This document shows positions 53,113 to 60,075 of a stretch of DNA of 64,000 nucleotides, piece by piece. Source of the stretch: Trichlorobacter thiogenes (GTDB lineage: Bacteria; Desulfobacterota; Desulfuromonadia; Geobacterales; Pseudopelobacteraceae); assembly GCF_900167465.1 (NCBI RefSeq), contig NZ_FUWR01000004.1, positions 62,001-126,000 of the forward strand, read 5' to 3'. The notes under the pieces were generated by a model. That model did no database searches. It was given only the letters and a program-made list of their open reading frames with translations, and was not told where the DNA came from. Position 1 is the stretch's first letter. Each line of letters opens with the position of its first letter. The translations under genes were made by a program, and so were the position numbers.

Positions 53113-53136
53113 GCGCGTATGAAAGGAGATCAGACG

Positions 53137-53715
53137 ATGAAGAGACTTGCACTGGCTGTTGCTGTATTGGCTACTCTGTTGACCACCGCTGCTGCTGTTC
53201 AGGCCGCAGATCTCTGTGCCGGTAAAACCCCCGGGACGGTCACCTTTTTTGATCGTGAGATCGACCGGGATAAGCCGTTGCCTGCCCCGGTGACAGAGCT
53301 TGATTTCAGTAAAGAGATGTGGGCGCTGGTCTGCCTGACCGATCCGGTTGGTCCCCAGGCCGATGGTGGTAAAAAGTTCAGGGTGGTGCTGTATGTCAAG
53401 CAGACCAAGAGCTATGACGGCAAATATTCTTCCTATGCATCCAATGCCAAGCAGGAAGGGGTTTTTCGACCAGCCCTGTCCAAGCCTCGCAAGGATATCA
53501 TCCTGTTCCTGAATGAGGACTTTAGCACCAATAAAGGACTCAGCTACAAGCTTGATCCCGGTGAGTATGACTTCCGTCTACAGGCAGCCACTGAAAAAGG
53601 TACCGGCAAGCTGGACCTGACCATCGACTGGAAAAATGATGTGGCCTATATTCAAGAGTTGCGTAAGGCGGGCTACGTGGCTGATGGCAGGATCAAGGTA
53701 CTTAAGCAGAACTAA
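53137..53715 (+). CDS. Secreted protein of unknown function in the arg operon
   Basis: 192 residues. AAAGGAG precedes the ATG at 53137; an ATG six codons earlier has no ribosome site. A clear signal peptide (MKRLALAVAVLATLLTTAAA, cleavage after VQA) gives a periplasmic or exported product of about 165 residues, with two Cys in the mature part that could pair (DLCAGK and LVCLTD). The mature part is rich in beta-type stretches such as GKKFRVVLYVKQTKSYDGKY cut at 20. I do not recognise a family. It is inserted between argB and argD on the same strand with short gaps. Confidence 0.8.
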   Translation: MKRLALAVAVLATLLTTAAAVQAADLCAGKTPGTVTFFDREIDRDKPLPAPVTELDFSKEMWALVCLTDPVGPQADGGKKFRVVLYVKQTKSYDGKYSSYASNAKQEGVFRPALSKPRKDIILFLNEDFSTNKGLSYKLDPGEYDFRLQAATEKGTGKLDLTIDWKNDVAYIQELRKAGYVADGRIKVLKQN

Positions 53716-55858: not shown

Positions 55859-57076
55859 ATGGCAAAAAAACAAGATGTTAAGAAGATCGTCCTGGCTTAC
55901 TCCGGCGGGCTGGATACCTCCATTATCCTGAAGTGGCTGAAGAATGAGTACGACGCAGAGATCGTGACATTCTCTGCAGATCTTGGGCAGGGTGATGAGC
56001 TGGAGCCGGTGCGTGAAAAGGCGCTCAAGACCGGCGCAAGTACCGTCTATATTGATGATCTGAAGGAAGAATTTGTTCGTGACTTCGTCTATCCGATGTT
56101 CCGGGCTAATGCTATTTATGAAGGCCATTACCTGCTGGGAACCTCCATTGCCCGTCCGCTGATCGCCAAGCGTCAGATGGAGATCGCCAAGATTGAAGGC
56201 TGTGATGCGGTCTCCCACGGTGCCACTGGTAAGGGTAATGATCAGGTCCGTTTTGAACTGGCCTATTACCATTTCGACCCCTCCATTACCGTCATCGCTC
56301 CCTGGCGGGATTGGAAGCTGAACAGCCGTAAGGCGCTGATCGCCTATGCCAAGAAGAACGATATTCCAATTCCGATCACCAAGAAGCGTCCCTGGTCTTC
56401 AGACCGTAACCTGCTGCATATCTCCTTTGAAGGTGGCATCTTGGAGGATACCTGGGCTGAGGCACCGGAAGAGATGTATGTGCTGACCTGCAAGCCGGAA
56501 AAGGCTCCCAACAAGGCGCAGTATGTTGAGATTGAGTTTGAACAGGGTAATGCCGTGGCGGTTGATGGTGTGCGGATGACACCGGCCCAGTTGCTGGCGC
56601 ACCTGAACACCATTGGCGGCCTGCATGGGGTAGGGCGGGTTGACCTGCTGGAAAACCGTTCAGTCGGCATGAAGTCCCGTGGTGTCTATGAGACTCCCGG
56701 CGGCACCATCCTGCGCGAAGCACACTCTGCTGTTGAGCAGATCACCATGGATCGTGAAGTAATGCGGATTCGTGACTCGCTGATTCCAGAATATGCCCGT
56801 CAGGTCTATGCCGGTTACTGGTTCTCCCCAGAGCGTGAAATGCTGCAGACCCTGATCGATGAATCACAGAAGACTGTTAACGGCGTAGCACGGGTCAAGC
56901 TGTACAAGGGACATTGCCGCACCGTTGGCCGCAAGTCCGAGACAAACTCGCTGTTCAACCTGGATTTTGCCACCTTTGAGAAGGACAAGGTTTATAATCA
57001 GGCAGATGCAGAGGGCTTTATCAAGATCAACTCCCTGCGCTTGCGGATCCGCTCCCTGATGCAGGGCAAGAAGTAG
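55859..57076 (+). CDS. argG: Argininosuccinate synthase
   Basis: 405 residues. ATP pyrophosphatase P-loop [12 protein letters not shown] near residue 15; [14 protein letters not shown] and [15 protein letters not shown] are typical. It condenses citrulline and aspartate. AAGGAG precedes the ATG. Confidence 0.97.
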
Positions 57077-57080
57077 GTTT

Positions 57081-57533
57081 GTGACCAAACCGCGCTACAG
57101 GAAGGAACATATCGTCACTTCTGTGGTGGCGGTGATTATTGATGAACAGGAACGGGTGCTCCTCACCAGGAGGAGCATCCCGCCCTTTAAAAATATGTGG
57201 GTCATGCCAGGCGGTAAGATTGATCTGGGGGAGCCGATAGCAACGGCACTCAGGCGGGAAGTGGATGAAGAGGTCGGGTTAGAGGTTGAGGTGGGCAGCC
57301 TGATTGATGTCTTTGAACACCTTACCCCCGGTGAAGAAAACTGCCACTACGTTATCCTGTTTTACCGTTGCAGACCGGTTCATTATGATCTGGCCCACAA
57401 TCCGGATGAGGTTGCCGAGGCAAGCTGGGTGCCAAGGCATGAACTTGCAGCCTACCTGATGCCTGACGGAACCCGTACCATCCTTGGGAAAATTTTCCCT
57501 GAGCTTGTCACAGTCGACCCGGAGTCGCGCTGA
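57081..57533 (+). CDS. Nudix hydrolase
   Basis: 150 residues from GTG, 4 bases after argG. The Nudix box is complete: G45, E51, R59, E60, E63, E64, G66 in GGKIDLGEPIATALRREVDE and the next residues. It hydrolyses a nucleoside diphosphate linked to another group; the substrate cannot be read. It overlaps the next gene by one base (TGATG), so the two are likely translated together. Confidence 0.9.
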   Translation: MTKPRYRKEHIVTSVVAVIIDEQERVLLTRRSIPPFKNMWVMPGGKIDLGEPIATALRREVDEEVGLEVEVGSLIDVFEHLTPGEENCHYVILFYRCRPVHYDLAHNPDEVAEASWVPRHELAAYLMPDGTRTILGKIFPELVTVDPESR

Positions 57534-58675
57534 TGCCAAAGATCATTGATACCAAGGTTAATCTTGCCTTTCCATTGGGGCATCATCTGCACTGCCTGAT
57601 TGCTCAGCTACCCAACCACCTGCATAAAACCTCTGGCTTTCATCCGGTAGAAGAACAACAGCAGTGGCAGGCGATCAATTCAGTCCTTGAGCTGGTGGCA
57701 GCAGGTGAAGGGAATCTTAAAAAGCTTCATTTTTTGCTGTTTCCTGAATCCAGTCTGCCGGTAAGCTGTCTTGATCAGCTGCTTGCAACCGTTGATCAGG
57801 GTTTCAGGCCCAATACGGTTACCATGATCGGCGTCGAGCATGTCAGCCTGCGGGAGTATCGTCGCTATCTTGAACGTTTCAAGGCTGATAATCAGGCGGC
57901 GATAGAGCTGGTTGATCAGGATATTGACTCGGGCGATGTGCTGGATATGCCGGTTAACTGGTGTCTGGTTCTGGTTAAGGAGGCAGACAGCAGGCTGCGG
58001 GTCTTTCTGGAGGCAAAGAGTCATCCCTTCCATGGTGAAGAGTTTATTGACAAGTACCATGATCTCTACCGGGGACGGCATTTTTACCTGTTACGCAGCA
58101 GAGCTTCTTGCTTTAATTTTATGGCGATTATCTGTCTTGATTATCTCTACCGTGACCTGTACAGCTCCAATATCAAGCAGATCATTGACCATGCAAATCA
58201 GCTCTATTTCAGTACCCGTCAGGGGCTTGATGCCCTGTTTGTGATCCAGTGCAATCCCAAGCCGGAGCATCAGGCCTACCGTGATGTGGTCAGCGGTTTC
58301 TACGGAGAATATCTGGAGGACACCCCTGGTGTGCGGGAGACGGTAACGGTTTTTGGCAACGCCTCTGATGAGACCCTGCTGGAAGGGGTGCCGCTGTCAA
58401 CCGGATTCGGACAATCCTCTGTGGTGATCAATCGCCATCACCGTCTGGAACAGGTGGTGTCAGAAGAGTTTGTTGCCGATGATTTTGCTGGCGCGCCGGT
58501 TTGCCGTTTACGGTTTGGTCGTGGCACACGCCTGCTCTATTTTAATCTGCCCTTGCACCATGAAATAGATCCGCGCAGTTCCAGGGTGCCGCTCAAGGTA
58601 CATGCCATTCTGCAGCGATCTGCTGAAGAAGGATGGGAAAAGGTGCAGTCAGCTACCTTCGTTGGTGGCATCTAA
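57533..58675 (+). CDS. Divergent carbon-nitrogen hydrolase (nitrilase-like) protein
   Basis: 380 residues, no obvious close family from memory. Three segments match the nitrilase superfamily triad in order and spacing: E72 in [11 protein letters not shown]162 in [13 protein letters not shown] and C201 in [15 protein letters not shown]169 may be the second conserved Glu. Later strands [11 protein letters not shown] and TVFGNASDE, then [10 protein letters not shown], fit the remaining core of that fold. No signal peptide or membrane segment. It is translationally coupled to the Nudix gene and sits between argG and argH, so an amide of arginine or nucleotide metabolism is a possible substrate. 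The triad is seen; the function is inferred. Confidence 0.65.
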
Positions 58676-58698: not shown

Positions 58699-60075
58699 AT
58701 GTCGCAGGACAAATTATGGGGTGGGCGCTTTACCCAGCCGACTGATAAGTTTGTGGAAGAGTTCACCGCCTCAATTGATTTTGACAAGCGGCTGTATCAT
58801 CAGGATATTCGTGGTTCGGTTGCCCATGCACGGATGCTGGGACGGCAGGGGATCATACCTCAGGATGATGTTGATAAAATTGTCCACGGTCTGGTAAATA
58901 TCCTGCAGCAGATCGAGGCAGGCGAATTTGATTTTTCCATCGGTCTTGAAGATATCCATATGAACATTGAGGCTCGCCTGTCCCAAAAGATTGGTGAGGC
59001 AGGCAAGCGGCTGCATACCGGACGTTCCCGAAATGATCAGGTGGCACTGGATATCCGGCTCTACCTGCGGGATGAGATTGTTGAGGTCGTGGCCTATCTT
59101 GAGATGCTGATTGATTCATTGCTGGAGCAGGCTGAAAAGAATATTGAGGTGGTGATGCCCGGCTTCACCCACCTGCAATCGGCTCAGCCGATCCTGTTTT
59201 CTCACCACATGCTGGCCTATGTCGAGATGTTTAAACGTGACAAAGGCAGGATGGAGGATTGCTTTAAACGGGTGAACGTGCTGCCTCTGGGGGCTGGTGC
59301 GCTGGCCGGTACAACCTTCCCGATAGACCGTGAATATGTGGCTGAGCAGCTTGACTTTCCTACGGTGACCCGCAATTCGCTGGATTCGGTTTCTGATCGT
59401 GATTTTGCCATTGAGTTTATCTCTGCCTCCTCAATTCTGATGATGCACCTTTCCCGTATGTCAGAAGAGTTGATCATCTGGTCCACCAGTGCCTTCCGTT
59501 TTGTGGATCTGTCCGACGGCTTCTGTACCGGCTCCTCGATCATGCCCCAGAAAAAGAACCCGGATGTGCCTGAGCTGGTGCGTGGCAAGACCGGGCGCGT
59601 CTATGGAAATCTGATGGCTTTGTTGACAGTGATGAAGGCATTGCCCTTGGCCTATAACAAAGACATGCAGGAGGACAAGGAACCGCTCTTTGATACGATT
59701 GACACCGTCAAGGGCTCTCTCAAGATCTTTGCCGACATGATCCGCGAGATGCGGGTTAATGCCGGTTCCATGGGGCGTGCAGCAGGCCAGGGATTCTCGA
59801 CTGCAACTGATGTGGCTGATTATCTGGTACGCAAGGGATTGCCGTTCCGTGATGCCCACGAGGCGGTCGGTAAAGCGGTGGCTTACTGTGTTGAAAACGA
59901 GATGGAGCTGGAAGAACTTTCTTTGGCTGAATGGCAGCTGTTTTCGCCGCACTTCAGTGATGACATCTTCGCAGCCATTACGGTTCAGGCAAGTGTCAAT
60001 GCCCGTAATGTGATTGGTGGTACTGCTCGCAGCCGTGTTGAAGATGAGATCCGGCGCTGTCGGGAAGGGAAGTAG
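58699..60075 (+). CDS. argH: Argininosuccinate lyase
   Basis: 458 residues starting [20 protein letters not shown], with AAGGAG at 58685. The fumarase/aspartase signature [12 protein letters not shown] is present, and [13 protein letters not shown] holds substrate-binding residues. Last step of arginine synthesis. Upstream in-frame codons overlap the previous gene and are not used. Confidence 0.97.

Follow-up and report, generated by a model that had tools for sequence, protein, structure and literature searches.

The locus considered here raises the question of what a Nudix hydrolase and a 380-residue protein of no evident family, encoded side by side, are doing among the arginine biosynthesis genes of Trichlorobacter thiogenes. 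In the window (the whole stretch of 64,000 nucleotides that was analysed), argB, an ORF for a 198-aa protein, argD, argF, argG, the Nudix gene, the 380-aa gene and argH follow one another in this order on the + strand (Table 1), the arg genes being named by reading of their sequences. The gap between argG and the Nudix gene is only 4 bases, and the TGA stop of the latter has one base in common with the ATG of the 380-aa gene, so that an initial sequence-only reading, which had placed two ORFs overlapping by one base between argG and argH, was correct in this respect. The start of argH is probably the one that follows an AAGGAGA (the mechanical ORF start would be at 58633). Promoter-like sites within the operon are not in excess (3 versus 3.5 in shuffled sequences), while terminator-like sites number 7 versus 4.0 (sd 2.2) in shuffles. 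The nearest named record is a Trichlorobacter metagenome bin, with 97% identity. The 198-aa protein encoded between argB and argD (window 53119-53715) has a secretion-signal-like N-terminus and was found only in two of the loci scanned (L073 and L116).

Table 1. Features of the Nudix-nitrilase locus (positions in the window).
Feature	Position	Strand	Basis
argG, argininosuccinate synthase, upstream neighbour	55859..57076	+	ORF, named by reading its sequence; syntenic
Nudix hydrolase (P0002), 150 aa, GTG start	57081..57533	+	Pfam NUDIX E=8.3e-26; box conserved
Nitrilase-superfamily protein (P0001), 380 aa	57533..58675	+	ORF; predicted fold; conservation
E72 codon	57746-57748	+	Invariant, on canonical Glu in profile alignments
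K162 codon	58016-58018	+	Invariant, on canonical Lys in profile alignments
C201 codon	58133-58135	+	Invariant, on canonical Cys in profile alignments
N-x2-P-x-H motif (NPKPEH), codons 241-246	58253..58270	+	Common to two LmuA-model relatives
argH, argininosuccinate lyase, downstream neighbour	58699..60075	+	ORF, named by reading its sequence; syntenic

That the 380-aa protein belongs to no obvious family, as was thought at first sight, holds for general sequence collections, since none of its hits in Pfam, NCBIfam, PHROGs or PDB sequences reaches significance. In Pfam, the best hit to CN_hydrolase (PF00795) came from one of 46 family members with E=0.11 and, because the curated cut-off was not reached, the protein is not filed under this sequence family. 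A PDB profile search with its family returned one chance match (E=0.38). The same statement does not hold for models of antiphage systems: the PADLOC LmuA model (PDLC03850), which has matches in none of 14 control genomes, covers residues 6-300 with E=1.8e-27, and the protein is therefore not without known relatives. The PADLOC RT_UG5-nitrilase model also matches, weakly (E=0.0054). Profile-profile alignment by hhalign gave E=0.086 against four nitrilases of the same genome and E=0.068 (score 20.5) against 34 canonical nitrilases, for which 60 column shuffles scored 16.1 on average and 22.8 at most, and the reversed alignment 18.6. An attempt to prove nitrilase homology by sequence alone thus failed, the score of 20.5 lying inside the range of the 60 column shuffles.

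Because the hhalign score is not significant, assignment of the protein as a putative Glu-Lys-Cys nitrilase rests on its predicted fold together with residue register and invariance. The fold was predicted by AlphaFold2 from an alignment of 46 homologues (A2), which comprises the window protein and 45 of 58 loci of the class (L054-L111) that were hand-chosen so as to cover different genera as well as paralogues, the 13 others mostly resembling retained rows closely. The resulting model (pLDDT 84.2, pTM 0.89) is a predicted alpha-beta-beta-alpha sandwich. In a Foldseek search of the PDB, 8/8 matches at E<=1e-3 were to the nitrilase superfamily (amidase, AmiF formamidase, N-carbamoylputrescine amidohydrolase, D-carbamoylase and apolipoprotein N-acyltransferase), with modest query-normalised TM-scores of 0.34-0.43. 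Similarly, 50 rows among the VIA matches listed were all nitrilase-superfamily proteins or contained such a domain (Z 14.3-16.1), including NAD-synthetase glutaminase domains and 1ems, which we take to be the structure of C. elegans NitFhit.

E72, K162 and C201, in which the sequence-only reading had seen a nitrilase-like triad, are each invariant in 46/46 rows of A2 and in 79/79 rows of a wider set (49 invariant columns out of 380), which goes beyond chance. Although the scores are not significant on their own, the hhalign register places the three residues on the catalytic Glu, Lys and Cys of canonical nitrilases, and C201 is located in the model after a strand (195-199) and before a helix (206-211), in a position resembling a nucleophile elbow. 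E169 and E170, candidates for the second glutamate of a catalytic tetrad, are invariant as well (79 rows), but they lie in a low-confidence loop (pLDDT <50 at 166-170). Three positions of a downstream N-x2-P-x-H motif, N241, P244 and H246, are conserved in 46/46 rows each, and in 78/79, 79/79 and 78/79 rows of the wider set, respectively. Neither a different predicted fold nor variation at E72, K162 or C201, the two outcomes that would have spoken against the initial proposal, was encountered. The fold is therefore well supported, and the 380-aa protein is almost certainly a nitrilase-fold cysteine hydrolase.

It is thus a branch of a known superfamily that has no Pfam or NCBIfam model. With canonical amidases (aliphatic amidase, AmiF, Nit2 and carbamoylputrescine amidohydrolase) it has in common the predicted fold and the order Glu-Lys-Cys, but it shows no significant sequence similarity to them, and the N-x2-P-x-H motif is absent from the Nit-type protein of its own genome (L195). 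That genome has five PF00795 matches. Judged by sequence and neighbourhood, one is a carbamoylputrescine amidase encoded next to an agmatine deiminase, two are NAD-synthetase glutaminases, and the others are Lnt and a Nit-type protein; with the 380-aa protein, which PF00795 misses, the number of nitrilase-fold proteins would rise to six. By reading, a glutaminase gene is followed by an NAD-synthetase-like gene twice in this genome (L197 and L198).

The partner is a more conventional enzyme. Besides matching Pfam NUDIX, it contains a full Nudix box, GX5EX7REUXEEXGU, at residues 45-67 (57213-57281), with conservation of the box residues of 97% or higher across 60 sequences, and its closest solved structures are of MutT and NUDT18 types. 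Whether the two proteins belong together could be assessed from their distribution, using cut-offs of E<=1e-3 for the nitrilase and E<=1e-30 for the Nudix protein. The nitrilase was found in 33/57 close relatives and, patchily, in 161/277 genomes of the class (119/187 of good quality), the Nudix protein in 165/277. Comparison by hand of the two full lists gave 155 genomes with both, six with the nitrilase only (G602, G491, G495, G511, G518 and G524), ten with the Nudix protein only (G637, G451, G453, G454, G456, G458, G459, G461, G462 and G567; eight of them from one family, f8) and 106 with neither, i.e. a phi of 0.88 among genomes that are related, which makes this a count rather than a test. 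The co-occurrence anticipated in the sequence-only reading is thus borne out.

A tree of argG (44 rows with the nitrilase and 24 without) calls for eight changes in nitrilase presence, three of which are forced by supported branches; over the corresponding three pairs, a number that cannot reach significance, the Nudix gene changed in the same direction in 2.8 on average and never in the opposite one. G050 was excluded from this tree for its broken argG match (L238 and L239), which covers residues 1-211 and 306-402 separately, leaves the middle unmatched and may reflect a deletion or an assembly fault. Among 25 genomes lacking the nitrilase, one has a Nudix orthologue (68% identity), the remaining Nudix matches being 27-46% identical. 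Conversely, of 27 nitrilase-bearing genomes in which the gene has an odd context, 21 have a Nudix orthologue (at least 50% identity). Such an orthologue occurs elsewhere in the genome in G046 and G053, which have an arg-type nitrilase, and in G455 and G449, where a paralogue-type nitrilase is the only match. The coupling is well supported and suggests that gain or loss of one gene is commonly accompanied by that of the other and that they share one job, for which no described function was found; it is very probable that the nitrilase shares one pathway with the Nudix protein.

The pathway most readily suggested by the genomic context is that of arginine. According to the original proposal, the pair would repair or salvage a nucleotide- or amide-linked by-product of arginine synthesis; this could be a by-product of ArgG or ArgH, for example a cyclised or carbamoylated intermediate. 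The tight packing in the window is in accord with this scenario, and so is gene order elsewhere. In the 58 chosen loci, some of which are near contig ends so that absences are upper bounds, the Nudix gene adjoins the nitrilase gene in 47. Of these, 43 have argG on one side and argH on the other, in the same order as in the window; in one locus, argH is the only flanking arg gene. In a nitrilase tree of 79 rows (77 different), 44 rows have arg genes and an adjacent Nudix gene, a state that occurs on both deep branches, and four have an arg gene with no adjacent Nudix gene. However, 15 rows have an adjacent Nudix gene and no arg gene within the stretch examined, and 16 have neither. The pair is present away from arg genes in a Geobacteraceae clade of seven rows, and no adjacent Nudix gene was seen in two clades of the class that correspond to paralogue-type nitrilases. 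Moreover, argG is kept in all 25 genomes lacking the nitrilase: argH is downstream of argG with neither gene of the pair between them in 14, one still has the Nudix gene between argG and argH, and no argH lies within the short argG flank examined in the other 10. The Nudix protein is MutT-like, and no product of ArgG or ArgH is known to us to be hydrolysed by Nudix enzymes. Since argG is retained where the nitrilase is lacking, and pairs are found with no arg gene nearby, an arginine-specific role is conceivable and not favoured; we regard it as improbable. The arginine operon would rather be the ancestral address of the pair in the class, and not necessarily its pathway.

Outside the arg operon, no constant neighbour was found across 34 loci compared. 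Beyond the pair itself, one neighbouring gene recurs, encoding an ABC-F-like ATPase (8/34 loci: six from one Geobacteraceae clade, among which one place is represented twice, from two collections, and two from paralogue loci). In Pfam, nine of ten chosen neighbours could each be assigned to a different family or set with no relation to the rest (ABC ATPase, MFS, HD/OB, GGDEF, solute-binding protein, permease, TANGO2, PD-(D/E)XK and acetyl-CoA hydrolase), and the tenth lacks a match. In a phylum sample of 395 genomes, 14 match the nitrilase, 12 of them inside the class, the two others (E 7e-9 and 3e-8) being LmuA-like. A scan of named genomes gave 140 relatives, the best 80 of which are largely of Geobacter type and other Desulfuromonadales type. 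They also include relatives in bins labelled Holophagaceae, Cloacimonadota, Anaeromyxobacter or Myxococcales (L157, L160, L162, L181-L183 and L187-L191), which may be due to horizontal transfer or binning error; the pair is present in four of eight tree rows labelled Anaeromyxobacter/Myxococcales, and, of the four without it, L191 is truncated by a contig end.

The patchy presence in the class and the PADLOC matches could also point to a defence or toxin-antitoxin-like module, in which the nitrilase would be an effector as in LmuA or DRT1, and the Nudix protein would restrain it or remove its product. According to a review, C-N hydrolases are among LmuA effector domains (PMC10586767); the PADLOC LmuA model may cover this type. 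Two proteins matching this model align in register with the window protein: L112 (E=2e-11) at FPE, KxHP, IC and N-x2-P-x-H, and the fragment L113 (5e-14) at the Lys, the Cys and N-x2-P-x-H. The first is a 586-aa protein encoded, by reading, between sugar-nucleotide epimerase-like and 2-oxoacid oxidoreductase-like genes (L112:2539-4299), and the second, with 240 aa, overlaps an HsdR-like gene of type I restriction at the latter's end (L113:5905-6627, by reading). No Lamassu partner could be read among the ORFs listed beside either of them; neither has a plasmid match, and L112 has none in viral contigs. The Nudix protein in turn matches the PADLOC candidate model PDC-S07 (E=1.9e-20), the plain Pfam NUDIX match being stronger. 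For DRT1, the original report states that immunity is abolished by mutation of the nitrilase active-site Cys, and asks what this nitrilase acts on (PMC13275509).

Several features nevertheless seem difficult to reconcile with a defence role. Lamassu LmuA has LmuB (SMC-like) and LmuC as partners, whereas the window gene stands beside argG, the Nudix gene and argH, in a biosynthetic operon and in a position that recurs across the class. The C-terminal docking region of LmuA is absent, the match spanning profile positions 9-303 of 604. DRT1 and UG5 systems, which have a nitrilase domain in common with the window protein, contain a reverse transcriptase domain; none was found in P0001, a stand-alone gene with a Nudix partner. 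Because the partner genes of both systems are absent, the window gene is not filed as a Lamassu or DRT member. A mobile-element origin was rejected: at E<=0.01, neither the 72,556 plasmid records nor the 50,697 phage records contain a match to the nitrilase, and scanning viral contigs by pattern found none either. Finally, in six comparisons, part of them close to saturation at synonymous sites, dN/dS was 0.046-0.097 for the nitrilase, 0.047-0.149 for the Nudix gene and 0.011-0.037 for argG, and with values of 0.05-0.10 the 380-aa protein is under purifying selection. A defence module is accordingly a doubtful reading of the pair.

NAD salvage is another pathway in which both activities could meet, the Nudix protein making NMN from NAD(H) and the nitrilase deamidating NMN in place of PncC. 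NADH pyrophosphatases are found among Nudix enzymes, and NAD-synthetase glutaminase domains have the same fold as that predicted here. A PncC/CinA-type domain is, however, present in 53/57 relatives, including 45/45 of good quality, 28 of which have the nitrilase and 17 do not, and the Nudix protein is nearest to MutT and NUDT18 types. An NMN deamidase replacing PncC is therefore not supported, the PncC/CinA-type domain being present with or without the nitrilase, and this possibility is the most remote of those considered.

The explanation that we prefer is that the 380-aa protein is probably a cytoplasmic Cys-Glu-Lys hydrolase of the nitrilase superfamily, forming a two-gene module with the Nudix pyrophosphohydrolase whose gene lies directly upstream. 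In amide hydrolysis, C201 would act as nucleophile, E72 as base and K162 as stabiliser. Both enzymes may act sequentially on one nucleotide-linked amide, the Nudix protein cutting the pyrophosphate and the nitrilase the amide, or in the reverse order, and the role of the module would be one of dispensable salvage or damage control; it is this chemistry and this substrate that we infer. A coupling of a nitrilase to a nucleotide hydrolase has a likeness in the NitFhit fusion of worms and flies, although NitFhit is a gene fusion rather than two overlapping genes, and Fhit is a HIT-family protein, not a Nudix one. Taken as a whole, this explanation is given a rough probability of 0.55, while the proposal that a nucleotide-linked amide is handled as part of housekeeping is a tentative one.

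Among the articles that searches of open-licence PMC listed, none describes a Nudix-nitrilase pair in an arginine operon in its title or the beginning of its abstract. It is a long shot that the pair represents an undescribed pathway of nucleotide-amide salvage or repair, in which the nitrilase would be a relative, with a housekeeping role, of the LmuA and RT nitrilases of antiphage systems. If this were true, its physiological substrate would reveal what the LmuA and RT effectors act on. A nitrilase outside defence that has a dedicated Nudix partner would offer an experimental route to the question of the DRT1 nitrilase substrate, and the pair itself is conserved over much of a bacterial class, with one partner for which neither Pfam nor NCBIfam has a model.
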